Positions 28,313 through 41,921 of a stretch of 64,000 nt of DNA are shown piece by piece. Position numbers and translations under genes: made by a program. Below the pieces are notes generated by a model, which was not told the origin of the DNA, ran no database searches, and saw only the letters and a list, made by a program, of their open reading frames with translations. Source of the stretch: Sphingopyxis sp. 113P3. Lineage in GTDB: Bacteria > Pseudomonadota > Alphaproteobacteria > Sphingomonadales > Sphingomonadaceae. The stretch covers positions 4,356,777 to 4,420,776 of the forward strand of contig NZ_CP009452.1 of NCBI RefSeq assembly GCF_001278035.1, written 5' to 3'. Positions within the stretch are counted from its first letter, which is position 1; every line of letters begins with the position of its first letter.

Positions 28313-28332
28313 TCCCGGCCGGTGGATGGAGG

Positions 28333-30543
28333 ATGGCGGTGGACGCGGCACAGGCGGTACATGAAAAATTTCTCGCGGCGCTCGCCGCCGGCGCGCTACC
28401 GCGGCGCGACGAGAGCCCCGACCCTGCCGCCGTGGGCCTGCCGCGCGCCGAGGCGATCGACATTTTCCTCTCGCAGTTGACCAGCCGCCAGATGGACCGG
28501 CTATCGCGCCATCTTCAGGCGCGCGGCGAGGGTTTCTATACGATCGGTTCATCCGGGCACGAGGGCAACGCCGCGGTGGCGGCGGCGCTGCGCGTAACCG
28601 ACATGGCCTTCCTTCACTATCGCTCGAATGCTTTCCAGCTTCACCGCGCGCGCCAGCTTCCCGGCGGCACGCCCACGTGGGACATGCTGCTGAGCTTCGC
28701 CGCATCGAGCGAGGACCCCATCTCGGGCGGTCGGCACAAGGTCATCGGGTCAAAGCTGCTCGCCATCCCGCCGCAGACTTCGACGATCGCCTCGCACCTG
28801 CCCAAGGCGGTGGGCGCCGCCTTTTCGATCGGCATCGCGCGGCGGCTCGCAATGACCGGCCTGCCCCTTCCTGACGATGCGGTGGTGCTCGCGAGCTTTG
28901 GCGATGCCTCGGCGAACCATTCGACCGCGCAGGGCGCCTTCAACACGGCAGGCTGGGCAGCGTTCCAGGGATCGCCGATGCCTCTCATTTTCCTGTGCGA
29001 AGATAATGGCATCGGCATTTCGACGCGCACGCCCACGGGCTGGATCGAGGCGCAATTCCGCCACCGCGCGGGGCTCCATTATGTCCGGTGTGACGGTACC
29101 GATCTGGTGTCGGCCTATGCAGGTGCATGCGAAGCCGCCGACTATTCGCGGCGCTATCGCAAGCCCGTGTTCCTTCACATGGCGACAGTGCGGCTATACG
29201 GCCACGCCGGCTCGGACGTGCAGGGTGCCTACCTGCCCAAGGCGCTGATCGAGGCCGATGAGGCGCGCGATCCCTTGTTGAAGGGTGCCGCGCTGATGAC
29301 CGAGCAGGGCTGGATGACTCCCGCCGAGATCGCCGACGCTTATGAAGAAATCGGCGCGACGCTCGCGCGGCAGGCCGAAGCGGCGATCCGGCGGCCCAAG
29401 ATCACGACACCCGCCGGAGTGATGGCCAGCCTGATTCCGCCGAAGCGGGAGAGGGTGCGCACGAACACCCCGTCGGCGGAGGATCGCGCTGCGATGTTCG
29501 GCAGCGACGCGAGCCAGATGGACAAGCCGATGCATATGGCCCGGCTCCTCTCCTGGGCGCTCGCAGACCTGATGCTCGCCTATCCCGAGATTGTCGTCGC
29601 GGGGGAGGATGTCGGGCCGAAGGGCGGTGTCTACAATGTCACCGCCAAACTCCATCAACGCTTCGGGTCCGCGCGCGTCGTCAATACATTACTCGACGAG
29701 CAGGCAATACTGGGCCTCGCGATCGGCATGGCGCACAACGGTTTTATCCCGATGCCCGAAATCCAGTTCCTTGCCTATGTCCACAATGCCGAGGACCAGA
29801 TTCGCGGCGAGGCTGCGACCTTGAGCTTCTTCTCGAATGGCCAGTACACCAATCCGATGGTCATCCGCATCGCGGGGCTCGGATATCAAAAGGGCTTTGG
29901 GGGTCATTTCCACAACGACAACAGCCTTGCGGTCTTTCGCGACATTCCCGGTATCATTCTTGCGGTACCCTCCAACGGGCGCGACGCGGTGCATATGCTC
30001 CGCGAATGCGTGCGGCTAGCGCGCGAGGAGCAGCGGGTGGTCGTCTTTGTCGAACCGATCGCGCTCTACATGACCCGCGATCTCCATGAGGAAGGGGATG
30101 GTCTTTGGACCAGCATCTACGAGGCGCCGGGCGAGGGAAGGCCAATCGCTCTCGGCGATGTCGGCGTGCACGGTGACGGGACCGAGCTGGCAATCGTCAC
30201 ATATGGCAACGGCTATTATCTCTCGCGCCAGGCCGAGAAGCTGCTCGCCGCGGAAGGCGTGAAGGCGCGTGTCATCGATATGCGCTGGCTCGGCCCGGTC
30301 GACGAGGACAAGCTGCTCGCCGCGGTGGGGGAGGCAAAGCGCATCCTGATCGTCGACGAATGCCGCATCACCGGATCGCAGAGCGAGGGGCTGATGGCCT
30401 TGTTTACCGAGCGCGCGCCTGGCAAGAAACTGAGGCGCATCGCCGCCGACGACAGCTTCATTCCGCTCGGCAAGGCGGCTACGCTGACCCTGCCGAGCCG
30501 GGACGGCATTGTGGCGGCAGCGAAAGAATTGCTGGCGCATTGA
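28333..30543 (+). CDS. Fused alpha/beta thiamine-diphosphate 2-oxo acid dehydrogenase E1 component
   Basis: 736 residues from an ATG preceded by GGATGGAGG. The N-terminal half (~1-390) is an E1-alpha module, with the ThDP motif GDASANHSTAQGAFNTAGWA...LCEDN at ~195-235. The C-terminal half (~400-736) is an E1-beta module (VVAGEDVGPKGGVYNVT, YTNPMVIRIAG, AIVTYGNGYYLSRQAEKLL). Separate alpha and beta chains are usual for branched-chain 2-oxo acid dehydrogenases. Single-chain fusions occur in sphingomonads and relatives. No E2 or E3 gene is nearby, so partner subunits must be encoded elsewhere, and the substrate (branched-chain 2-oxo acid or acetoin-like) is open. Confidence 0.88.
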   Translation: MAVDAAQAVHEKFLAALAAGALPRRDESPDPAAVGLPRAEAIDIFLSQLTSRQMDRLSRHLQARGEGFYTIGSSGHEGNAAVAAALRVTDMAFLHYRSNAFQLHRARQLPGGTPTWDMLLSFAASSEDPISGGRHKVIGSKLLAIPPQTSTIASHLPKAVGAAFSIGIARRLAMTGLPLPDDAVVLASFGDASANHSTAQGAFNTAGWAAFQGSPMPLIFLCEDNGIGISTRTPTGWIEAQFRHRAGLHYVRCDGTDLVSAYAGACEAADYSRRYRKPVFLHMATVRLYGHAGSDVQGAYLPKALIEADEARDPLLKGAALMTEQGWMTPAEIADAYEEIGATLARQAEAAIRRPKITTPAGVMASLIPPKRERVRTNTPSAEDRAAMFGSDASQMDKPMHMARLLSWALADLMLAYPEIVVAGEDVGPKGGVYNVTAKLHQRFGSARVVNTLLDEQAILGLAIGMAHNGFIPMPEIQFLAYVHNAEDQIRGEAATLSFFSNGQYTNPMVIRIAGLGYQKGFGGHFHNDNSLAVFRDIPGIILAVPSNGRDAVHMLRECVRLAREEQRVVVFVEPIALYMTRDLHEEGDGLWTSIYEAPGEGRPIALGDVGVHGDGTELAIVTYGNGYYLSRQAEKLLAAEGVKARVIDMRWLGPVDEDKLLAAVGEAKRILIVDECRITGSQSEGLMALFTERAPGKKLRRIAADDSFIPLGKAATLTLPSRDGIVAAAKELLAH

Positions 30544-30623: not shown

Positions 30624-31682
30624 ATGGCTGACAGAAGAAAAACCGCCCTCATCATCGCCCCGGGCCGCGGTACATACGGCAAGGGTGAGCTTGGCAGCAT
30701 AGCCCGTCTTCACGGCACGCGCTTTGGCGACCTCATCGCCCGCTTCGACGCTCATCGCCGCGACCGAGGCCAGCCACCGGTGACCGAACTCGACGGCGCT
30801 GAGCGTTTCAGCGTGGCTGTGCACATGCGCGGCGATGTCGCCGCCCCGCTGATCTACACCGCGACGATCCTCGACTATCTGAGCATCGATCGCGACGCCT
30901 TCGAGATCGTGGGCACTCTCGGCAATTCGATGGGCTGGTACAGTGCGCTCGCGATCGGGGGGGCGGTGTCGGTCGAGGACGGCTTTCGCATCGCCAACGC
31001 CATGGGAGTGAACAGCCAGTCGCACGGCCCCGGCGGACAAATGCTGCTTCAGGTCGTCGATGAGGACTGGCGTCCCGTGCCGGGCCTGCGCGAAGCTTTG
31101 CTCGCGTGCGCCGCTGACATCGGCGCGCGTCCGGGCCATTCTCTCGGCCTCTCGATCGACCTTGGCGGAATGCTTGTGCTCGCGGGCAATGAGGAAGGGC
31201 TCGCCGCGCTTGCTGCCGAAGCGCCGCCCACGCCGGGCCGCGATCCTCTGCGCCTCGCCGGTCACGGTCCCTTTCACACGCCGCTGATGGTGGGGAGTTC
31301 AACCAGGGCAAAGGCTGAACTCCCGCCGTCGCTGTTCGGCGGGCCCGCGATGCCGATGATTGACGGCCGCGGCCATGTCTGGCGCCGCTTTTCCAGCAAT
31401 CCGGCTGAAATCTGGGATTATAGCTTCGGCCACCAGATCCTTTGCCCCTATGACTTCGCGCGCTCGGTGCAGGTCGCGGTCATGGAGTTTGCGCCTGATG
31501 TACTGATCCTTCCCGGCCCCGGCGATACGCTGGGCGGCGCCATCGCGCAGGCGCTGATCGGGATCGGCTGGCAGGGGCTGACGGGCAAGGCCGATTTTGC
31601 GGCGCGGCAGGCCTCCGACCCGATCCTCCTCTCCATGGCTCGCCCCGAGCAGCGCGCCCGCGTCGTCCGCGGCTCGTCATAG
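30624..31682 (+). CDS. FabD-like ACP S-malonyltransferase-family acyltransferase
   Basis: 352 residues. The acyltransferase fold is seen from the nucleophile elbow GNSMGWYSALAIGGAVS (FabD has GHSLGEYSAL) and the catalytic-His region GHGPFHTPLM. The C-terminal DVLILPGPGDTLGGAIAQ is also FabD-like. It differs from housekeeping FabD in having Asn before the nucleophile and an N-terminal ALIIAPGRGTYGKGELG region in place of the usual FPGQGSQ. It may be a paralogue acting on another acyl-CoA. It follows the fused E1 by 80 bp, so a link to 2-oxo acid metabolism is possible. It overlaps the convergent TetR gene by 6 bp. Confidence 0.75.
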   Translation: MADRRKTALIIAPGRGTYGKGELGSIARLHGTRFGDLIARFDAHRRDRGQPPVTELDGAERFSVAVHMRGDVAAPLIYTATILDYLSIDRDAFEIVGTLGNSMGWYSALAIGGAVSVEDGFRIANAMGVNSQSHGPGGQMLLQVVDEDWRPVPGLREALLACAADIGARPGHSLGLSIDLGGMLVLAGNEEGLAALAAEAPPTPGRDPLRLAGHGPFHTPLMVGSSTRAKAELPPSLFGGPAMPMIDGRGHVWRRFSSNPAEIWDYSFGHQILCPYDFARSVQVAVMEFAPDVLILPGPGDTLGGAIAQALIGIGWQGLTGKADFAARQASDPILLSMARPEQRARVVRGSS

Positions 31683-32267
31683 AAGCGCAGCGACCGCCCG
31701 CTCGACCATCTGTGCTGCCGCCTTGCCACCGAAGCTTGCGGGGTCGAGCGACAGTTCGAGCCATAATCCGTCGACCATTGCCGTCAGCATGATAGCCAGC
31801 CGACCGGGCTCGGCTGCACCGCACGCGGCCAGGAGCTCGCCGAGCCGTGCACGGTAGCCGGCGTAGCTTTCGGCGTGAATCGCGGCCATCCGTCCATCGG
31901 ACCGCGCCAGCGCCCAGAAAGCGGTCCACGCGCCCAATAGTTCGGGGTCGGTCACGGGCGGACGGAAACTTGCCGTCAGATAGGCGGTGAGGCGCGCGCG
32001 CGGGTCACTGCCCGCCGCCTCGACCGCAGCCGCGAAAATCGCGTCCATCCGATCGCTCGTCGCCCGGTAGGTCGCGGCGATCAACTCGTCGATCCCGGCA
32101 AAATAATGGCGCAGCAACCCCGGAGACACCCCCGCCCGCGCGCAGATGGCGCGGACATTGGTCCCAGCCAGCCCATGCTCGGCGAGGCAGGCCGCTGCTG
32201 CGTCGATCAGCGCGCCTCTGCGGGCATCGGCGCTCTCGCGCGTAAAGGCTTGGCGGGCGGGTCGCAT
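31677..32267 (-). CDS. TetR/BetI-like transcriptional repressor
   Basis: 196 residues from the ATG at 32267. The N-terminal HTH is typical of TetR proteins: RRGALIDAAAACLAEHGLAGTNVRAICARAGVSPGLLRHYFAGIDELIAAT. The C-terminal ligand domain resembles BetI (ALARSDGRMAAIHAESYAGYRARL, MVDGLWLELSLDP). It is divergent from the Rieske oxygenase with only 33 bp between start codons, and that gap holds a 22-bp palindrome. Thus it most likely represses both itself and the oxygenase operon and releases on binding a substrate of that pathway. Confidence 0.9.
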   Translation of the reverse strand: MRPARQAFTRESADARRGALIDAAAACLAEHGLAGTNVRAICARAGVSPGLLRHYFAGIDELIAATYRATSDRMDAIFAAAVEAAGSDPRARLTAYLTASFRPPVTDPELLGAWTAFWALARSDGRMAAIHAESYAGYRARLGELLAACGAAEPGRLAIMLTAMVDGLWLELSLDPASFGGKAAAQMVERAVAALL

Positions 32268-32268
32268 A

Positions 32269-32290
32269 TTGTTATACGTATGTATAACAA
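32269..32290. promoter_or_regulatory. TetR operator candidate between divergent genes
   Basis: Perfect inverted repeat TTGTTATAC-GTAT-GTATAACAA (9-bp arms, 4-bp centre). It occupies most of the 33 bp between the tetR ATG (32267) and the oxygenase ATG (32301). Arm length and position are characteristic of TetR-family sites. The oxygenase SD (AAGGA) directly abuts it, so binding would also block the start region. Confidence 0.85.
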
Positions 32291-32300
32291 GGATCGGATC

Positions 32301-33467
32301 ATGGCAACGCTGCGCGGCACATTCCCCAACTTCGACCCCCTGGACGGCTGGTCCCTCCCTGCATGGACATACAGCGACCCCGAATTTTATTCGCTCGAGG
32401 TGGAGCGTATCTTCCGCCCCAGCTGGCAGGTCGTCTGCCATGACAGCGACATCCCGAATCCGGGCGACTGGCACAGCATCGACTATATCGGAGAAAGTGT
32501 CATTCTCGTCCGCGGCGCCGACCGCATCGTGCGCGCCTTCACGAATGTCTGCCGCCACCGCGGCTCGCGCCTCGTCGACGGATCGTCTGGCTGCGCGAAG
32601 AAGCTCGTGTGCCCCTATCACGCCTGGACCTACGAACTCGACGGCCGGCTCACCGGCGTTCCCGATTCAGCGAGCTATCCCACGCTTGACCGTGGCCAGG
32701 CCGGGCTTGCGCCCGTCGAGGCGGAGCGATGGCGCGGCTTCTGGTTCGTGCGTCTTGCCGACGACGGCGGCCCATCGGTTGCGTCGATGATGGCGCCCTA
32801 TGAAGCGATGATCGAGGCCTATCGTTTCGAGGAGCTTGGTGCGCTCGGCCGCGTCACCCTCCGGCCGCGCGAGGTCAATTGGAAGAATGTCGGCGACAAT
32901 TATTCGGATGGCCTTCACATCCCCGTCGCGCACCCCGGTCTCACCCGGCTGTTCGGCAAAAGCTACGGCGTCGAGGCCGAGGAGCGCGTCGACCGCATGT
33001 GGGGAGATCTGATCGACCGCCCCTCGGCCAACTGGTCGGAGCGCCTCTACCAGCAACTGCTGCCCCCGGTCCCCCACCTTCCCGACGACCGTCAGCGCCA
33101 CTGGCTCTATTTCAAGCTCTGGCCCAATGTCGCGTTCGATATCTATCCCGACCAGGTCGATTTCATGCAGTGGCTGCCGACCGGCCCGACGCGCTGCCTG
33201 ATACGCGAAATCAGCTATGTCCTCCCCGACGACCGCCGCGAGATGAAGGCCGCGCGCTACCTCAACTGGCGCATCAACCGTCAGGTGAATGCCGAGGACA
33301 CCGCCCTGATCACGCGCGTCCAGCAGGGCATGCAATCGCGAAGCTTCAGCGTCGGGCCGCTCAGCGAGAAGGAGGTCTGCCTCAAGCATTTCTGTTCGCG
33401 CATGCGCGAGATCATTCCCGAAGCGCGTCTGGAAAAGGCGCCGGCGCCGGGGTGGAGCCACCGTTGA
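32301..33467 (+). CDS. Rieske non-heme iron oxygenase, alpha subunit
   Basis: 388 residues. The Rieske [2Fe-2S] site is C84-R-H86 ... C104-P-Y-H107. The mononuclear iron site is in NVGDNYSDGLHIPVAH, with His206, His211 and the bridging Asp203 that passes electrons between subunits. The latter is Asp, unlike the Glu of carnitine monooxygenase CntA. Overall layout (single alpha chain, ~390 residues, no beta subunit nearby) fits the choline/aromatic quaternary-type oxygenases. No ferredoxin or reductase is encoded nearby, so electrons must come from elsewhere or from an unlinked partner. The next gene overlaps by 4 bp (TTGA). An in-frame ATG at 32280 lies in the operator and is less likely. Confidence 0.9.
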   Translation: MATLRGTFPNFDPLDGWSLPAWTYSDPEFYSLEVERIFRPSWQVVCHDSDIPNPGDWHSIDYIGESVILVRGADRIVRAFTNVCRHRGSRLVDGSSGCAKKLVCPYHAWTYELDGRLTGVPDSASYPTLDRGQAGLAPVEAERWRGFWFVRLADDGGPSVASMMAPYEAMIEAYRFEELGALGRVTLRPREVNWKNVGDNYSDGLHIPVAHPGLTRLFGKSYGVEAEERVDRMWGDLIDRPSANWSERLYQQLLPPVPHLPDDRQRHWLYFKLWPNVAFDIYPDQVDFMQWLPTGPTRCLIREISYVLPDDRREMKAARYLNWRINRQVNAEDTALITRVQQGMQSRSFSVGPLSEKEVCLKHFCSRMREIIPEARLEKAPAPGWSHR

Positions 33468-34684
33468 CCGCTAACGCGCCTGTCATCATCGTGGGCGGGG
33501 GGCCGGCCGGCATGGTTACAGGGCTCCTCCTCGCGCGTGCCGGGGTGCAGGTGGTAGTGCTCGAAAAACATGCCGATTTCCTCCGCGATTTTCGCGGCGA
33601 CACGGTCCATCCCTCGACGCTCGAGCTGTTTCACGAGATCGGCCTGCTTCAAAAACTGCTCGAGGAACCGCACGCGAAGCTCGACACGATGACGCTCAAT
33701 TTGCTCGGGCAGCGCTACACGATCGCGACACTGAAGCATCTGCCCGTCGCTGCGCCCTTCGTTGCGATGATGCCCCAGTGGGACTTTCTCGATTTCGTTG
33801 CGGAGCAGGCGAAGCTTTATCCGACCTTCGAGCTGCGCATGTCGACCGAAGCGGCCGGGCTCACCCATGATAGCGGCGGCCGCGTCAACGGTGTAGCGCT
33901 CGCAAATGGTGAACAGGTGGCCGCGCGGCTCGTCATCGCCGCGGACGGGCGCCGATCGGTGCTTCGTGCCGCGGCCGACCTCCCGCTTGAGGATCTGGGT
34001 GCGCCCATGGACGTGCTCTGGTTTCGCGTTCCCGTTCCCGCAGGGACCGATATGTCTGACGTCGCGCTCGGCACGATCGACCGCAGTGGAATGGTCGTGG
34101 CCATCCCGCGCGGTGATTATTGGCAATGCGCGCAGGTCATTGAAAAAGGTCACCTTGCCGCGATCGAGGCGCGCGGCATCGCCGCCTTTCGCGCCAATGT
34201 GGCGGCGCTGGTTCCAGGCCTTGCTGCAAGTGTCGATGCGGTTCGCAGTTTCGAGGACGTCAAGCTGCTCTCCGTCGCGCTCGACCGGCTGACCCGCTGG
34301 TCGCGCCCCGGCCTGCTCGCGATAGGTGACGCTGCACACGCCATGTCGCCGATCGGCGGCGTGGGCATCAACCTCGCGGTGCAGGATGCCGTTGCTGCTG
34401 CGAACATCCTCGCAGCTCCGCTCGCCGCCGGAGCCGATCCCGACCCTCTGCTCGCGCGCGTGCAGGCGCTGCGCTCGAAGCCGACGGCGCGGATGCAGGC
34501 CCTTCAGCGCTTTGCCCACCGACGCGTGATCGAGCCAATGCTGCGCGGCGATATCACCCGCGCTCCCTTCGCTGTCCGTCTGCTCGACGCCGTTCCGCTC
34601 TTGCGCCGCATACCCGGCCGTGTGCTCGGCCTCGGTTTCGGCCGCCAACATGTCGAATCCCCGCTTGCGAAAGAATATTCATGA
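33464..34684 (+). CDS. FAD-dependent monooxygenase (PHBH/UbiH-type)
   Basis: 406 residues, read from a TTG that overlaps the oxygenase stop by 4 bp; a GTG at 33452 is the alternative. The FAD-binding pattern is VIIVGGGPAGMVTGLLLARAG at the N-terminus. The DG motif VIAADGRRSVLR and the GDAAHAMSPIGGVGINLAVQDA segment follow. All are typical of single-component aromatic hydroxylases of the p-hydroxybenzoate hydroxylase type, which add an OH group to aromatic rings using NAD(P)H and O2. The substrate is unknown. It is tightly coupled to the Rieske gene before it and the FAD oxidoreductase after it. Confidence 0.88.
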   Translation: MTANAPVIIVGGGPAGMVTGLLLARAGVQVVVLEKHADFLRDFRGDTVHPSTLELFHEIGLLQKLLEEPHAKLDTMTLNLLGQRYTIATLKHLPVAAPFVAMMPQWDFLDFVAEQAKLYPTFELRMSTEAAGLTHDSGGRVNGVALANGEQVAARLVIAADGRRSVLRAAADLPLEDLGAPMDVLWFRVPVPAGTDMSDVALGTIDRSGMVVAIPRGDYWQCAQVIEKGHLAAIEARGIAAFRANVAALVPGLAASVDAVRSFEDVKLLSVALDRLTRWSRPGLLAIGDAAHAMSPIGGVGINLAVQDAVAAANILAAPLAAGADPDPLLARVQALRSKPTARMQALQRFAHRRVIEPMLRGDITRAPFAVRLLDAVPLLRRIPGRVLGLGFGRQHVESPLAKEYS

Positions 34685-36285
34685 CCAAAGCCTATGACGC
34701 CCTCATCGTCGGTGCCGGCCACAACGGTCTTGTGTGCGCCTTCTATCTCGCGCGCGCGGGACTGAAGGTCCGCATCCTTGAGGCGCGCAATGTCGTTGGC
34801 GGGGCCGCGGTGACCGAGGAATTCGCACCTGGCTTCCGCAACTCTGTCGCAAGCTACACCGTCAGCCTGCTGCAGCCGAAGGTGATCGCCGACATGAAGC
34901 TTGCCGATCATGGCTATCGCGTCATCGAGCGTCCGATCAGCAATTTCCTGCCGCAGGAAAATGGGGGCTATCTGAAGCTCGGCGGCGGGCTGGAGCGCAC
35001 GCAGGCCGAGTTTTCGAAGTTCAGCGCCCACGATGCCGCCGTGCTGCCGCAATATTATGACGCGCTCGAAAATGTCGCCGAATTGCTCCGCGATCTTGCG
35101 CTGCGAGTTCCGCCGAACGTGGGGGAGGGGCTGCGTACGCTGCTCGACGGCGCGCGGCAGGGGCGGCGTTTCGCCAGTCTCCGGCTCGAACAACAGCGCG
35201 ACGTGCTCGACCTCTTCACCAAGTCGGCGCGCACGATGCTCGACGGCTGGTTTGAAAGCGAGGCGGTCAAGGCCGCCTTCGGCTTCGATGCGGTCGTGGG
35301 CAATTATGCCAGCCCCGACACCCCAGGAAGCGCCTATGTTCTCCTCCACCACGTCTTCGGTGAGGTAAACGGCAAGAAAGGGGCGTGGGGCCATAGCGTC
35401 GGCGGCATGGGACGGATCACCGAGATCATGGCAAAGGTCTGCCGCGACCTGGGCGTCGAGATCAGCCTCGAAAGCCCGGTTGCAAAGGTGCTGGTCGACG
35501 GGGGCCAGGCGGTCGGGGTCAAGCTTGCGGGCGGCGAGGAAATCGCTGCGGCGCGGGTCATCGCGAATGTCGGGCCAAAGCTGCTTTACGAACGGTTGAT
35601 GGATGCGGCCGACCTGCCGCATGACTTCCAGCGCCGGATCAAGGGCTTCAAGGCGGGCAGCGGGACGTTCCGCATGAATGTTGCCCTGTCCGAGCTGCCC
35701 AAATTCACATGCCTGCCCGAACCGGGCGAGCACCATCAGTCGGGGATCATCCTTGCGCCTACTCTCGACTATATGGACCGCGCTTTCCTCGATGCGAAGC
35801 AATTCGGCTGGTCGAAGGCGCCGATCGTCGAAATGCTGATCCCTTCGACCGTCGACGAGAGTCTCGCGCCCCCGGGGCAGCATGTCGCGAGCCTCTTCTG
35901 CCAGCAATTCGCGCCCGAGCTGCCCGATGGCCGCGACTGGGACGATGAAGAAGAGACGGCCGCCAATGCCATCCTCGACACGGTCGAAAAATACGCGCCT
36001 GGCTTTCGCGCCAGTATCGTCGGCCAGACTCGGCTCAGCCCAAAGGGGCTCGAACGCAAATTCGGGCTGGTCGGCGGCGACATCATGCACGGGAATATGA
36101 GCCTCGACCAGCTCTGGGCGGCCCGGCCGGTGCTGGGAAATGGCGGCTACCGCGGGCCGGTCAAGGGCCTCTACATGTGCGGCGCGGGCACCCATCCCGG
36201 CGGAGGCGTGACCGGGGCGCCTGGGCACAATGCCGCGCAAGTCGTCCTGCGCGACCGGGGCCTATTCGCGCCCCGCTGGCGCTGA
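34681..36285 (+). CDS. PYROXD2-like NAD(P)/FAD-dependent oxidoreductase
   Basis: 534 residues. The N-terminal dinucleotide-binding fold DALIVGAGHNGLVCAFYLARAG is followed by EARNVVGGAAVTEEFAPGF. The C-terminal flavin motif is GLYMCGAGTHPGGGVTGAPGHNAA. This family (COG1233, related to phytoene desaturases and mammalian PYROXD2) has no agreed reaction, though carotenoid-type desaturation or polyene oxidation is often assumed. It starts with ATGA overlapping the monooxygenase stop. Three oxidising enzymes in one overlapping set suggest successive steps on one substrate. Its 3' end overlaps the convergent permease gene by 24 bp. Confidence 0.88.
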   Translation: MTKAYDALIVGAGHNGLVCAFYLARAGLKVRILEARNVVGGAAVTEEFAPGFRNSVASYTVSLLQPKVIADMKLADHGYRVIERPISNFLPQENGGYLKLGGGLERTQAEFSKFSAHDAAVLPQYYDALENVAELLRDLALRVPPNVGEGLRTLLDGARQGRRFASLRLEQQRDVLDLFTKSARTMLDGWFESEAVKAAFGFDAVVGNYASPDTPGSAYVLLHHVFGEVNGKKGAWGHSVGGMGRITEIMAKVCRDLGVEISLESPVAKVLVDGGQAVGVKLAGGEEIAAARVIANVGPKLLYERLMDAADLPHDFQRRIKGFKAGSGTFRMNVALSELPKFTCLPEPGEHHQSGIILAPTLDYMDRAFLDAKQFGWSKAPIVEMLIPSTVDESLAPPGQHVASLFCQQFAPELPDGRDWDDEEETAANAILDTVEKYAPGFRASIVGQTRLSPKGLERKFGLVGGDIMHGNMSLDQLWAARPVLGNGGYRGPVKGLYMCGAGTHPGGGVTGAPGHNAAQVVLRDRGLFAPRWR

Positions 36286-37506
36286 GCTGCGCTGCGTCCA
36301 CCAATAGAGCGGCAGCCCTGCCGCCATCAGGATCAAGCTCATCGCGCTGACCCCGATCCCAGCACCCCAGAGGGTCCAGATCGCGTAGACAAGCCCGAGC
36401 GCCGCGACCGGCATGGCCACCCCGAGGCGCAGCGCAGCTCCCGCACAGGCGAGGTAAAGCCACAGCGTCACCGAGGTTGAGAGCACGGCCATGAAATTGA
36501 ACATTTCTGCAGTGGACTTGTTGTCATTCAGGATCACGCAGGCCGTTGCGATTGCACTCGAAAGAACGAGCGCATTGGCCGGCGTGCCGTGACCGTTCGC
36601 CCGGGCGAACCATCGGGGAAGCAATCCTTGCCGTGCGAGCGTTGCGGGGAGCTCGGCCTGAATCAGCGTCCACCCATTGAGCGTCCCTAGCGCACTCACC
36701 GCAGCGAAGGCGGCGATCAGCAGGGCAGGTTCGCGGGACCAATAGGTTTCGACGAACAGCGAGAAGGGCGAGCCCGAGCCCGCCACCGAGTTCGCTGGCA
36801 GCATCAGGATGATCGCTGAACAGACGGTGAGATAAAGAAGGCCGGTCGCCACAGTGCCGATCATCGTCGCGCGCGGGATCGTCACCGATGGCCGATCGAC
36901 CTTGTCCGCCGCCACGCTTGCCGATTCGAAACCGAGCAGCGCCCACAGGGTGAAGATAGCCGAGGCGCTGACCGTGGTCAGTGACAATCCTTCTGCGGGG
37001 AAAGGCGTCAGCGCCACGGGTTCGTCGCGGCTGAAGGCGATGGGGATCAGCACGATCACCGTGGCGAGCGGCACGAGCTTGATCAATAGCGTCGTGATCT
37101 GGAACCGCCCCGCCGCCCGGGCGCCGCGCCAGTTGATTGCCGTGACGATCCAGATCAGCGCGATCGTCGCTCCGGCCATATGCCGCCCCAATGCGGGCAC
37201 GAAGATGCTGAGAAAGCTGACGGCGGCCACCGCGAGCGTCACATTGGCCGTCCATACCGATATCCAATAGGCCCAGCCTATCATGAAGCTCGGGGTGCGG
37301 CCGAAGGCGCGCTCGACAAAGCCGGTCGGGCCTCCCGCCTCGGGAAAGGCAACGGTCAGCCGCGCGAGCACGGCCGCGAGCGCAAGCGCCCCCGCAATCG
37401 TGAGAGCCCAGCCCGCGACCGCATTCCAGCCGAAGGGAGCAAGGCTTGCCGGGAGCAGGAACACCCCCGACCCGATCATATTCCCCATGACCAGCGCGAC
37501 GCACAT
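36262..37506 (-). CDS. APC-family amino acid permease
   Basis: 414 residues with about 12 membrane helices. The first conserved APC helix is VALVMGNMIGSGVFLLPASLA, with later FVERAFGRTPSFMIGWAYW and LWALLGFESASVAADKVDRPSVTIPRA. Transport direction and substrate are not readable; the pattern is closest to PotE/ArcD-type and general amino acid permeases. In-frame coding-like sequence continues upstream of the ATG (..PEQRLGLLM), but no ATG, GTG or TTG precedes it before the receptor gene's stop, so the real start may be an unusual codon. It is minus strand, downstream of the TonB-dependent receptor and 58 bp from its stop. Confidence 0.88.
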   Translation of the reverse strand: MCVALVMGNMIGSGVFLLPASLAPFGWNAVAGWALTIAGALALAAVLARLTVAFPEAGGPTGFVERAFGRTPSFMIGWAYWISVWTANVTLAVAAVSFLSIFVPALGRHMAGATIALIWIVTAINWRGARAAGRFQITTLLIKLVPLATVIVLIPIAFSRDEPVALTPFPAEGLSLTTVSASAIFTLWALLGFESASVAADKVDRPSVTIPRATMIGTVATGLLYLTVCSAIILMLPANSVAGSGSPFSLFVETYWSREPALLIAAFAAVSALGTLNGWTLIQAELPATLARQGLLPRWFARANGHGTPANALVLSSAIATACVILNDNKSTAEMFNFMAVLSTSVTLWLYLACAGAALRLGVAMPVAALGLVYAIWTLWGAGIGVSAMSLILMAAGLPLYWWTQRSSAPAGRE

Positions 37507-37564: not shown

Positions 37565-39946
37565 TCAGAAATCCTTGCTGACCTTCAGCCCGATCAGCCG
37601 AGGTCGGATGACATTGTCATAGAAGACGCCGCCGGTCGAACTGATGCCGTCCGGATCGCCGCAGATCGACTCGCCGCACTGGACCGCGCTGTTCACGACG
37701 CCGCGGCTGTCGAACAGGTTGGTCGCGAACAGCTCGGCGCTCCAGTCGTCGGATTTGACACCGATGCTGACGTCGGCGGTCGTATAGGCCTTGAAATTGC
37801 CGACGATTCCATTCTCGAAGATACGCAGATCCGACCGGCGCTTGCCGACATGGTTGACCGCCAGCTGGACATGTCCGTCAAGGCTCGCGACCGGGAAGTC
37901 GTAGCGCGCGACCGCATTGCCCTTGAACTTGGCGGTGACGGGAAGCCGCGTGCCCGCGGGAGCGAGCAGCGCGTTGGTCTGGCCCGGCGGGTCGATCGAG
38001 CAGTCGAACTGGTCGTTGGCGATCGCGCAAAAATCGCGCCGGATCGTCGCGTCATTATAGCTGCCCCCGAGGTTGAGCGACAGCCCGCCCGCCCGATAAC
38101 CCACGTCAAATTCGAAGCCGCGGATCCGCGCAATGCCCGCGCTGCGGATTTCGGTCAGGCCGTTCGCCCCGAGGAAGGACAATTGGATGTCATCCCAATC
38201 TTCCTGATAGACGGCGCCGTTGAAGCGCAGCGGCCCGAAGCTCGATTTCCACCCGAATTCGTAATTGTCGAGCGTGTCGGGGCCATAGGGTGGCAGCGTA
38301 CCGCGCCGGTTGATGCCGCCGGGCCGGAAACCGCGCGACCAGGTCCCATAAACGAGGACGTCGTCGGTGACCTTGTAGGTCAGGTTGAGCTTGTGGATGA
38401 AGTCCGTATCCTTCGTCCGCTTGTCGAGGTTGGTGCAGGGTGATCCCGCGACGACGGGCCCGGCGAAACAGCCCGCGACCCCGGTGCTGCCGAAACCGTC
38501 CGAATAGCCGAAGAAGCCGACGAGACTGTTGTCGAACTTGTAGACCCGGCCGCCGCCGGTCAGCGTCAGCCGGTCGGTGATGTCGAAGCTGAGCTCGCCG
38601 AACACGGCATAGTCGCGATCGATGCGCAGCTGCTTGGTCAACCAGATGTCGCTGGGCGTGCCGGGAACGGTGATCGCGTCGGCGATGTCGTCGATAATAT
38701 AATTCTGCTCGATATTGTGCGACTGACGCTGCCAGAAGACGCCGCCGATAAAGCGTAGCCGCGCGTCGGAGGGAGAGGCGATGCGGGCCTCGAAGAAGCT
38801 CTTCTTGTAGCGGTCGATGCCGTGGATATACTGGTTCGGGCTGACCAGATCGCCATTATTGTCATAAAAATAGGCGCCGTAGCCATAGAGCGCGTCGTAG
38901 AAATAAGCGTAATCCGAATAGTCGCTGTCAACCACGGTCTTGCGCCGCAGATGGCCGCCCGTGACCGTCAGATCCCAATTGCCGAGCTTGCCCTCGATGG
39001 TCAGCGCGGCCTGGAGCCATCTGTCCTTCGACATCTCCGGATTATACTGCACGATCTGCAGGTCGCGGGTCACCGCGGACGAGCGTTCCTGCGCAAAATT
39101 TCCGTTCGCCTTCTGCACCTGGCCCATCACTGTCGGGCGTAGCGTCCAGTCGTCGTCGAGTTCGATGCCGAGGGCAAGGCGGGCGCCATAGGTGTCGACA
39201 TCATTATAGTCGTTCTCGACAAGTGCAGCGTTATCCTGCGTGATGCCGCTCGAGAAATAGGTACGGCTGCCGGCGATATTGTCGATATAGCCGCCATCAT
39301 GGCGGTACCAGCCGACGAGGCGCAGCGCAGCGCGGTCGCTGAGCTTTGCGTTGATGAAGCCTTCGGCGACCCCGCCAATGTCACCATGCGCAACGCTATT
39401 GAGTTCGAGGCCGACCGAACCATAGGTGCCGCTGGTGTCGGGCGGATTGGTGACAAGTTTGATCGTGCCTGCCATCGAGCTTGCGCCGTAGAGCGTCCCC
39501 TGCGGTCCAGCGAGCGCCTCGACGCGCGCCAGGTCGTAGGCGTGGATGTCAAGCGCGCCCTGAATCGTCGTGATCGGCATTTCGTCGAGATAGGTGCCGA
39601 CGGTGGGCAGCGACGCCGAATGGTTGGCATTCTCCCCGCTCGCGACGCCGCGGAAATAGACCTGGCTGAAGCCCGGCCCGAGCGACTGGATCGTGACCGA
39701 CGGCAGAAATTTGACGACGTCCTGGAATTCCTTGACCTGCAGCTCGTTGAGTCTCTCGGTGCCGATCGCGGTGATCGCAAGCGGAACGTCCTGCAGATTC
39801 TGTTCGCGCTTCGACGCGGTGACGACGATATCGTCACTGCTTCTCGTCCCCGATTGCTGTGCGAAAGCCGCGCCTGACGTGCAGAGCATCGTACTGCCCA
39901 GCAGAAGCGCGCCGCTCTTTGCTACCACCGCCCTCAAATCACGCAT
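37565..39946 (-). CDS. TonB-dependent outer-membrane receptor
   Basis: 793 residues from MRDLRAVVAK, with SD GAGGGGGG 5 nt ahead. The signal peptide ends near AAFA/QQS (residue ~29). The TonB box-like DDIVVTASKR is at ~38-47. The plug has VEALAGPQGTLYGASSMAGTIKLVTNPP, and the barrel ends in Phe (VSKDF). The FecA/CirA-like family moves large substrates across the outer membrane. It is followed 58 bp downstream by an APC permease on the same strand, so both may import one compound, perhaps the substrate of the oxygenase set encoded opposite. Confidence 0.94.
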   Translation of the reverse strand: MRDLRAVVAKSGALLLGSTMLCTSGAAFAQQSGTRSSDDIVVTASKREQNLQDVPLAITAIGTERLNELQVKEFQDVVKFLPSVTIQSLGPGFSQVYFRGVASGENANHSASLPTVGTYLDEMPITTIQGALDIHAYDLARVEALAGPQGTLYGASSMAGTIKLVTNPPDTSGTYGSVGLELNSVAHGDIGGVAEGFINAKLSDRAALRLVGWYRHDGGYIDNIAGSRTYFSSGITQDNAALVENDYNDVDTYGARLALGIELDDDWTLRPTVMGQVQKANGNFAQERSSAVTRDLQIVQYNPEMSKDRWLQAALTIEGKLGNWDLTVTGGHLRRKTVVDSDYSDYAYFYDALYGYGAYFYDNNGDLVSPNQYIHGIDRYKKSFFEARIASPSDARLRFIGGVFWQRQSHNIEQNYIIDDIADAITVPGTPSDIWLTKQLRIDRDYAVFGELSFDITDRLTLTGGGRVYKFDNSLVGFFGYSDGFGSTGVAGCFAGPVVAGSPCTNLDKRTKDTDFIHKLNLTYKVTDDVLVYGTWSRGFRPGGINRRGTLPPYGPDTLDNYEFGWKSSFGPLRFNGAVYQEDWDDIQLSFLGANGLTEIRSAGIARIRGFEFDVGYRAGGLSLNLGGSYNDATIRRDFCAIANDQFDCSIDPPGQTNALLAPAGTRLPVTAKFKGNAVARYDFPVASLDGHVQLAVNHVGKRRSDLRIFENGIVGNFKAYTTADVSIGVKSDDWSAELFATNLFDSRGVVNSAVQCGESICGDPDGISSTGGVFYDNVIRPRLIGLKVSKDF

Positions 39947-40091
39947 GAGAACCCCCCTCAAATGACAGCTGTGTGATGCGAGCATGACGCAGTGCAGCGT
40001 AAGCGCAAGCTTTGTTGTCCAGGCAGCAGGGCGGTTTGTCGAAAATATCGGCTGCTGTTGCCCAAACGCAACGAATTTGCGCGCGTCGACT

Positions 40092-41921
40092 TCAGCTGAA
40101 AAGGCTGGGTGTCCCTGGATAAGCCTCCAGGACCGGGCCCAAGGCGTCGCGAAGTGGCTCGAGCCAGGCTTTGTAGGGTTGCCACTGGCCTACACCGTCC
40201 CGATTGATCGGGCGGCGCACCTGTTCGCTCGACGCCGTCCGGACGGCGCGGGCATTGGTGTGAAAGGCCATGCATGCCGCCTCGTACGGCTGGCCGAGGA
40301 AGGCGAGCATGGCGCGAACTTCGCCTTCCGGGTCGTCGAGGAGCGCCTCGTGAATCACGCGGTGGACCGCCCCCGGCTGTACTGCATCGATATGCGCCAT
40401 CAGCCGCACATAATCGCGATAATAGGCGCCCATGTCGGCGAGGTCATAGCTGAACGCCTGCCCCTTCGCATAATGCTGGCGGAAATTGGACCAGCAGCAG
40501 TCGAGCGGATGCCGCCGCGCATCGATGATCTTCGCATGGGGAAGTATCAGGCGGATCAGCGGAACATAGAGCCAGTTGTTCGGCAACTTGTCGATATAGA
40601 AGGGCTTGCCCGTTTTACGCTGCACCTGCGTCCGGCGAAGGAAGGCAGCGCCCATCTCGGCGAGTTTCTCAGGTGAAGCGGCGGCAACCGCCTCGACCCA
40701 GCGCCGCCCGTCACCGAGCGCCTCGCGCCCGAGCCCCAGCGCGAGTGCGGGGATGTCGGGGAGTTCCATCGTGCCCTCGATCGCCGAATGGCTGGCGAGA
40801 ATTTGTTCGACGAGCGTCGATCCGGCCCGCGGCATGCCGAGGATGAATATGGGATCGGGGGCGGGGTCACCGCTGCCTGCGCGGTCGACGTAAAAGGCAG
40901 GCGTGAAGGTCGCAATGGCGGCATCGACGATAGCGGTCGTTTCCTTCGCCTCGTAGCCGAGCTGATCCGCGCGGATTGCATTACCTGCCACATAATGGCG
41001 AAAGGCAGCTTCCGGCTCGCCGGCATCGTCATGCGCCTTGCCGAGCGCGAAATGAAGATGCAGCCGATCGTCGTCGCGGCCGCTGTCGGCTGCATCTGCG
41101 GCCTCCAGCGCGGCCTCCATCGCGGCGCGGTCGCGCTTGTCGAAGCGGATCGTCTTGAGATTGGCAAGACTCCACCACAGTTCCCCGAGCCCGGGATCGG
41201 CACTCAGTGCATGGCGATAGGCGGCGATACTGTCGTCCTGCCGCCCGACGGTCTTCAGCATATGGCCATAGCTCATCCACAGCTTGGCGTGGCCGGGAAA
41301 GCGGCGCGTCAGCTCCTCATAGAGAGCGATCGCCTCGTCATAGCCGCCGATGCGACCGAGCGCTGCGGCCTTAAGGTTTGCGTGGGCGGGATTGTCCGGA
41401 TCCTCACCCAGCACCGCGTCCAGCATCTCGACGGCTTCGGCATAGCGGTTCTGCTTGTAATAAACGGTTGCGAGATTGGCGCGCGCCGCGCCGAATCCCG
41501 GGGCGAGTTCGAGTGCGCGGCACAGCAGCTTTTCGGCGTCGCCATAGCGCCCGATCCGCCCGGCAACCTCCGCAAGCATGCGGATGGCCGCGACGTCGGT
41601 CGCATCGGCCTTCAGCCGCGCGCGCAGCGCCCCTTCGGCATCAGGCAGGCGATTCTCGGCGAGCGCGAGCGCTGCCTCGATCAGGGCAGGATCGTGGATC
41701 GCAGCGCTCACCGCTGCGAGTGAAGCTTGCTGAGCTTCCTCCTCGCGGCCGAGCGCGCGCAGAGCGTGCGCCGCGATCCGGTGGGCTTCAGCGGCCGTCG
41801 GCAGCGCCGCAATGATCGCGCGGGCCTGCGCGAGTGCTGCAGCGGGCTCGCCGCGCAGTAGCCGGCGAGCACTGGCGAGCGCTTCGTCGACGGAAACGGT
41901 CGCCATGCCCGCAGCCGTCAC
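40092..41921 (-). CDS. TPR-repeat sulfotransferase-family protein
   Basis: 609 residues from GTG (ATG 41906 is the alternative). Residues ~10-320 form TPR repeats (e.g. AARANLATVYYKQNRYAEAVEMLDAVLGEDPDNPAHANL). The C-terminal sulfotransferase domain begins PIFILGMPRAGSTLVEQILASHSAI (~357-381), the 5'-phosphosulfate loop that binds PAPS, and includes WVEAVAAASPEKLAEMGAAFLRR. These fused proteins are frequent in sphingomonads and are thought to sulfate surface proteins or polymers; target unknown. The start overlaps the DsbA-like stop by 4 bp. Confidence 0.88.
   Translation of the reverse strand: MTAAGMATVSVDEALASARRLLRGEPAAALAQARAIIAALPTAAEAHRIAAHALRALGREEEAQQASLAAVSAAIHDPALIEAALALAENRLPDAEGALRARLKADATDVAAIRMLAEVAGRIGRYGDAEKLLCRALELAPGFGAARANLATVYYKQNRYAEAVEMLDAVLGEDPDNPAHANLKAAALGRIGGYDEAIALYEELTRRFPGHAKLWMSYGHMLKTVGRQDDSIAAYRHALSADPGLGELWWSLANLKTIRFDKRDRAAMEAALEAADAADSGRDDDRLHLHFALGKAHDDAGEPEAAFRHYVAGNAIRADQLGYEAKETTAIVDAAIATFTPAFYVDRAGSGDPAPDPIFILGMPRAGSTLVEQILASHSAIEGTMELPDIPALALGLGREALGDGRRWVEAVAAASPEKLAEMGAAFLRRTQVQRKTGKPFYIDKLPNNWLYVPLIRLILPHAKIIDARRHPLDCCWSNFRQHYAKGQAFSYDLADMGAYYRDYVRLMAHIDAVQPGAVHRVIHEALLDDPEGEVRAMLAFLGQPYEAACMAFHTNARAVRTASSEQVRRPINRDGVGQWQPYKAWLEPLRDALGPVLEAYPGTPSLFS

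Follow-up and report, generated by a model that had tools for sequence, protein, structure and literature searches.

The carnitine monooxygenase CntA binds a quaternary ammonium group through a pi-cation contact with its Tyr203, and, in the part of the source used here, an aromatic residue at this position is the mark of Rieske oxygenase clade Va (PMC7948474). A Cys-X-X-Cys pair beside the iron is described for some group V members, again in an excerpt of the source (PMC10952381). In a separate field, variants of human PYROXD2 are associated with N6-methyl-lysine and N6,N6-dimethyl-lysine in three studies, excerpts of which attribute to them about half of the variance of these two compounds; one study adds trimethyl-lysine and N-methylpipecolate, and another symmetric dimethylarginine (PMC8109053, PMC9730628, PMC11988406). 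The function of PYROXD2 in these studies is deduced from human genetics, and a limited literature search found no biochemical paper on the human protein. Here we analyze a 64,000-nucleotide stretch of Sphingopyxis sp. 113P3 (NZ_CP009452.1, positions 4,356,777 to 4,420,776; “the window” below), in which a Rieske oxygenase gene, an FAD-dependent monooxygenase gene, and a gene for a PYROXD2/CrtO-like FAD oxidoreductase (PYR) lie together opposite a TetR gene. We find that the conserved core of this locus is the pair of Rieske and PYR genes, often with TetR, an operator, a permease, an outer-membrane receptor, and a sulfotransferase-family protein; the pair and its associated genes are referred to as the module. 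We tentatively read it as a module that takes up and oxidizes an N-methylated basic amino acid derived from peptides, the Nε-methyl-lysines (tri- and dimethyl-lysine) being the likeliest, an assignment with nearly, though not quite, an even chance of being right.

The open reading frames (ORFs) and their overlaps can be read directly from the sequence. They give the order TetR, operator, Rieske, FAD monooxygenase, PYR (span 31677–36285), with the TetR gene divergent from the others. The FAD monooxygenase gene overlaps its neighbors by 4 bp on either side (TTGA at the Rieske stop, ATGA at the PYR gene), and the convergent PYR and permease genes overlap by 24 bp. The first-pass annotation of the window had described three oxidizing enzymes coupled by 4-bp overlaps under a 22-bp palindrome common with a divergent TetR gene, and the coordinates confirm that description. 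The features of the locus and its right flank are these:

31677..32267, minus strand: TetR regulator with a BetI-type C-terminal domain (Pfam TetR_N and TetR_C_6)
32269..32290, no strand: predicted 22-bp operator common to the divergent TetR and Rieske genes (palindrome, conservation)
32301..33467, plus strand: Rieske oxygenase alpha subunit (ATG start, AAGGA ahead of it at 32289-32293)
33464..34684, plus strand: FAD-dependent monooxygenase of the PRK06185 type, accessory (TTG start; NF004834)
34681..36285, plus strand: PYR, core partner of the Rieske gene (Pfam and NCBIfam matches, co-conservation)
36262..37506, minus strand: APC permease related to basic amino acid/polyamine antiporters (Pfam AA_permease_2)
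37565..39985, minus strand: TonB-dependent receptor for outer-membrane uptake (family scan)
40092..41921, minus strand: TPR-containing sulfotransferase-family protein (family scan)

Co-conservation was assessed in 298 genomes drawn evenly from the family, with relatives accepted at E ≤ 1e-60 for the Rieske protein and the FAD monooxygenase and at E ≤ 1e-100 for PYR. Rieske relatives occur in 97 genomes and PYR relatives in 156; PYR coordinates are listed for 147 genomes, and the pairing counts rest on these. Among the matches listed, PYR accompanies Rieske in at least 90 of the 97 genomes (p ~1e-24 for co-presence, with relatedness ignored), and in at least 80 the two lie within 3.5 kb of each other. 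For the other 17, no PYR gene lies within 3.5 kb among the matches listed, which short contigs may explain in some cases. We also fetched 88 loci (1.6 Mb, window excluded), called their genes by codon scoring (longest-ORF calling produced antisense ORFs), and scored them by tblastn with fixed thresholds. A Rieske gene is present at 300 bits or more in 68 of these loci, and 48 of the 68 have at least 7.5 kb on each side (“full-flank” loci); the 20 PYR-only loci, picked for having no Rieske match, served as controls. It should be noted that some full-flank loci are near-copies (e.g., L034 and L139), so counts based on them are not independent. PYR is found in 45 of the 48. The first-pass annotation had staked its proposal on co-conservation beyond this strain, and the module is indeed found in many relatives.

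The uptake genes to the right of the window locus recur as well. Among the full-flank loci, 33 have the permease, 29 TetR, and 28 the receptor; the TPR-sulfotransferase is as frequent with the module as the TonB receptor (28 of 48 each). An M20 peptidase is present in 20 and an amidohydrolase in 13, with one or the other in 26. The controls have TetR in two loci, the permease in one, and M20 in three, and none has the receptor, the sulfotransferase, or the amidohydrolase. An earlier suggestion that permease and receptor belong with the oxidative unit is thus supported. When 20 selected ORFs beside PYR in the 20 Rieske-less loci were inspected by eye, they proved mixed and partly housekeeping, the only shared partner being M20, in three loci.

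The FAD monooxygenase behaves differently. It scores 536.8 bits against NF004834 (PRK06185 type), above the cut-off of 500, and has relatives in 56 of the 298 genomes; the Rieske gene is present in 28 of these 56. It lies within 1.3 kb of the Rieske gene, however, only in G000, G293, and G228 (71–100% identity). None of the other 53 relatives exceeds 63% identity, and the nearest of them on a contig with a Rieske gene is 77 kb off, in a search that scored a few first-look candidates per genome and so may miss weaker copies. The fetched loci agree, with the gene in 3 of 68 Rieske loci, 3 of 48 full-flank loci, and none of the 20 controls. A core step for this enzyme is therefore ruled out and the gene is classed as accessory, because it is missing from nearly all homologous loci, and the three-enzyme pathway of the first-pass annotation does not hold. 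The system is both broader than first thought, with uptake genes and, in relatives, peptidases, and simpler, with two core enzymes. Genome G228 is the only one outside the genus of the window seen with the FAD monooxygenase at the module locus; there (L140:5272-6900, minus strand) a tryptophan 2,3-dioxygenase gene and a class II aldolase gene adjoin the module TetR gene.

The operator, TTGTTATAC-GTAT-GTATAACAA, has perfect 9-bp arms and stands immediately upstream of the TetR start and 10 bp ahead of the Rieske start. With up to three mismatches allowed, it is the sole site within the window (0 in 100 shuffles) and in the whole 4.66-Mb genome; at this stringency, the search of window and genome gave no such site at the permease, receptor, and sulfotransferase genes. 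There are 32 divergent TetR/Rieske pairs including that of the window, of which 30 were scored and two have no scorable region between their predicted starts. Of the 30 intergenic regions, 29 agree with the window pattern TTGTTATAC-N4-GTATAACAA at no fewer than 13 of its 18 positions, a count that takes in the window and near-copies, with 0.03 expected from mononucleotide shuffles. Across the 88 fetched loci, all 37 sites matched at 15 or more of 18 positions lie at the Rieske start or, in L045 and L121, at the PYR start (in a few loci a predicted gene start overlaps the site), and a reversed-pattern control over the same 1.6 Mb gave no sites. The pattern fits a dedicated local regulator, presumably the divergent TetR protein, and the idea of a dedicated TetR-controlled oxidative unit is to that extent supported. 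In L121 (position 9006), the operator and a TetR gene precede a PYR gene with no Rieske gene, which suggests that PYR alone may function under the same signal.

The window Rieske protein contains the 2Cys-2His Rieske motif and the 2-His-1-carboxylate iron site of group V. The Rieske motif reads CRH...CPYH, and the iron ligands His206, His211, and Asp333 are invariant in an alignment of 24 sequences (A1). Its nearest solved structure is CntA (E 4.7e-38, residues 13–349 of 388), ahead of ring hydroxylases, with which it shares the Rieske and iron ligands and a Tyr two residues ahead of the bridging carboxylate. That Tyr201 is the equivalent of CntA Tyr203, so the protein has the aromatic residue of clade Va. 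The same position is Asn in structure 3vca, which we take to be Stc2, Leu in two near-identical dioxygenase structures, and Gln, Val, and Ala in the three other Rieske paralogues of this genome. We defined the module group by the motif NY[SVC]D, which includes this Tyr, among the 91 rows that reach 340 residues (the 6 shorter rows of the 97 were excluded). All 63 module-clade members of the tree carry the motif, and the 63 rows form one clade (support 96/98) with no motif-less row inside. The tree was built without characterized reference enzymes and has flagged long branches; its deep joins are tentative.

Relatives of the pair exist outside the group. Four plasmid-borne Rieske proteins, found in Rhizobiaceae and Rhodobacterales, make up the sister group of the module clade (100/100; five of the eight plasmid matches were examined). 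Three of the sister clusters hold two PYR genes each and L116 holds one, the stretch ending there; the clusters also encode a GcvT-like protein, an aminotransferase, and ABC transporters, with a polyamine-type annotation for one transporter (in L118). Two loci from other phyla, one of Gemmatimonadota and one of Chloroflexota, combine a Rieske gene with two or three PYR genes and one for a GcvT-like protein. The GcvT-like proteins of these two loci score 229 and 216 bits against the GcvT model (cut-off 300) and best match the C-terminal half of trimethylamine N-oxide (TMAO) demethylase, at 269 and 286 bits.

A few module loci have other neighbors. In L152 (11086-19668), the Rieske and PYR genes lie by genes for a beta-keto acid cleavage enzyme (BKACE) of the 3,5-dioxohexanoate type, a class III aminotransferase, and histone-deacetylase-fold, GNAT, and WD40-like proteins. 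L075 and L076 have similar neighborhoods, as judged from clustering and visual inspection, the family scan being confined to L152. A carnitine cdhABC-type neighborhood was considered for these three loci and dropped, given that the L152 enzyme falls, by score, in the 3,5-dioxohexanoate class and that its neighbors are the GNAT, class III aminotransferase, and histone-deacetylase-fold proteins. Some distant relatives have yet another peptidase gene, of the M16 (insulinase) family, that separates the PYR and Rieske genes; it is found in L075 (7491-9950, plus strand), with similar genes in L076 and L078 (the Pfam scan covered the L075 copy only).

The linked peptidases give some indication of what the module may handle. 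The amidohydrolase of two relatives is closest to the L-arginine carboxypeptidase Cc2672 (339 and 353 bits), with matches over most of the protein (2 of 14 loci tested), and the second-best match in both is a Zn-dependent arginine carboxypeptidase. The case differs from Cc2672 in that the gene is module-linked in only 13 of the 48 full-flank loci. The M20 peptidase of L034 passes PRK09133 (617.5 vs. 349 bits), and its PDB matches are weak only. Both kinds of protein start with signal-peptide-like stretches, as judged by eye, and may be exported. The M20 gene of Sphingopyxis sp. 113P3 is still near five genes that adjoin it in S. terrae, and because it keeps these neighbors, the module appears to have been relocated away from it in this strain.

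PYR resembles CrtO and CrtI-type FAD oxidoreductases and may resemble PYROXD2 over its full length. It is 41% identical over 547 residues to what we take to be the human PYROXD2 sequence, and this figure serves as a naming lead only.

Taken together, these observations favor a methylated basic amino acid as substrate, with N-demethylation or deamination as the favored type of oxidation. We favor it because CntA is the nearest structure and its ammonium-binding Tyr is kept in 63 of 63 proteins, because sister and looser kin pair PYR with GcvT-like genes, and because Cc2672 is the best match for the amidohydrolase linked to the module in two relatives. Human PYROXD2 variants track methyl-lysines, as far as the cited excerpts go, and this counts in the same direction, as does the fact that the permease is nearest to basic amino acid/polyamine antiporters and the TetR protein nearest to BetI. 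In the scheme that we propose, the TonB receptor would take up peptides, with the TPR-sulfotransferase involved in some way, and exported peptidases (locus-linked in many relatives, encoded elsewhere in this genome) would free the C-terminal basic residue outside the cytoplasm. The APC permease would then import the amino acid, which, or a product of which, may release the BetI-like TetR from the single operator. The Rieske enzyme, with a presumed reductase partner, would attack the quaternary ammonium form at an N-methyl group to give formaldehyde and the dimethyl form; alternatively, attack at the adjacent methylene carbon would give trimethylamine and a semialdehyde. PYR would oxidize the di- and monomethyl amines, and the FAD monooxygenase would be an optional extra in this strain. 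The most specific form of the scheme is methyl-lysine scavenging from proteins, in which TonB import and a C-terminal Lys/Arg carboxypeptidase would feed a new Asp-bridged, Cys-less clade of quaternary-ammonium Rieske enzymes that opens trimethyl-lysine, with the PYROXD2 relative acting on the di- and monomethyl forms; with all of its parts, we regard this as somewhat unlikely. A limited literature search found neither a bacterial operon of this type nor this gene set.

A number of observations weigh against assigning the module to methylated basic amino acids. The window Rieske protein has a bridging Asp203 where CntA has Glu205, as the first-pass annotation had pointed out, and Gly204 and Ile207 replace the Cys206/Cys209 pair; it also keeps other gene company than CntA, with no reductase gene among the scanned window neighbors. 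A bridging Asp is not exotic by itself, because the three other Rieske paralogues of the genome have it too. In distant actinobacterial relatives, the Tyr is replaced by Phe, with the Glu and the Cys pair retained, and the aromatic mark is only moderately telling because it is also common in this wider group. Most family assignments fall below the cut-offs of their models. The best NCBIfam model for the Rieske protein is that of the glycine betaine monooxygenase GbcA (NF058607), at 149.3 bits vs. a cut-off of 670. The TetR protein shares the TetR_C_6 domain with the choline-sensing repressor BetI (TIGR03384), its nearest model, but scores 104.7 vs. 201.3 bits and has one operator site in the genome. 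For the permease, the best model is TIGR00905 (basic amino acid/polyamine antiporters), at 249 vs. 409.05. PYR reaches 254.7 of 1000 bits for CrtO, with no carotenoid gene among nine window proteins scanned, and 120.5 of 238.1 for the CrtI-type model, and the GcvT-like proteins stay below the TMAO demethylase cut-off of 1100. The PYROXD2 name, and with it the link to human genetics, is a lead that depends wholly on the human sequence that we compared. As for gene content, 57 genomes have a listed PYR match and no Rieske match, and 10 of the 48 full-flank loci lack permease, receptor, sulfotransferase, and peptidases at the thresholds used. There is no peptidase gene among the window proteins scanned, the homologues in this genome (63% for the amidohydrolase, 85% for M20) both being far from the locus, and one relative, L140, has the tryptophan 2,3-dioxygenase beside its module.

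Several of these points bear on other substrates. A quaternary or methylated amine other than lysine (betaine, a choline or carnitine relative, an amino acid betaine, or a methylated polyamine) would suit the CntA/GbcA-like Rieske protein, for which GbcA is the nearest NCBIfam model, and the BetI-like TetR, as well as the aminotransferases and ABC transporters of the sister clusters, one of polyamine type. We nevertheless consider such a compound unlikely: a TonB receptor, linked peptidases, and a basic-amino-acid-type permease would be odd beside small osmolytes, although this argument is weak, the flanks not having been scanned as a whole for choline and betaine genes. The first-pass annotation had listed a quaternary amine among its three guesses, and this is now the favored one of them; its other two, an aromatic or a terpenoid compound, find little support. 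Aromatic catabolism commonly involves the Rieske and FAD_binding_3 families, TonB receptors serve many aromatic and terpenoid substrates in sphingomonads, and the bridging Asp is as in the other Rieske paralogues of the genome, all of which would agree with three oxidizing enzymes acting in sequence on such a compound. However, the FAD monooxygenase needed for that sequence is missing from almost every homologous locus, genes for ring cleavage or a CoA pathway are not among the families conserved across loci, and the nearest solved Rieske structure is CntA rather than a ring hydroxylase. Nor did the scan of nine window proteins reveal a beta subunit, ferredoxin, or reductase, in keeping with the ferredoxin/reductase pair that was reported absent in the first pass; in the genome as a whole, the search for reductases was confined to PF00175, and the one domain that it found is ~5 kb away from a Rieske gene other than that of the module. 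We therefore regard an aromatic or terpenoid substrate as very unlikely. A further alternative is that the module oxidizes an amino acid or peptide modification that is not methylated, such as a tryptophan- or arginine-derived residue. The arginine carboxypeptidase-like amidohydrolase and the dioxygenase of L140 would suit it, but the latter is seen in one locus only (the flanks were not scanned as a whole). Methyl-ammonium chemistry is what the conserved Tyr suggests, as do the GcvT-like genes found in distant kin, and in our judgment this alternative has only a small chance. Homarine catabolism was set aside when literature searches yielded nothing useful.

Directly left of the locus are a gene for a fused E1 alpha-beta 2-oxo acid dehydrogenase (28327-30543, plus strand) and an acyltransferase-like gene (30624-31682, plus strand) with weak MdcH and FabD matches and no Pfam match at E 0.001. 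Rfam and tRNA scans of the window gave no matches.

If the assignment to methylated basic amino acids is correct, it would give a substrate class to a Rieske–PYR pairing that stands side by side in at least 80 of 298 genomes of the family and that occurs, as looser kin, in two loci of other phyla. It would also extend quaternary-ammonium Rieske chemistry to a clade without two of the CntA hallmarks. Even if the substrate guess is wrong, a TetR regulator with a single operator offers a direct way to the inducing compound. And if it is right, human PYROXD2, whose methyl-lysine associations are strong and have been found repeatedly, would gain a bacterial model that is easy to assay.

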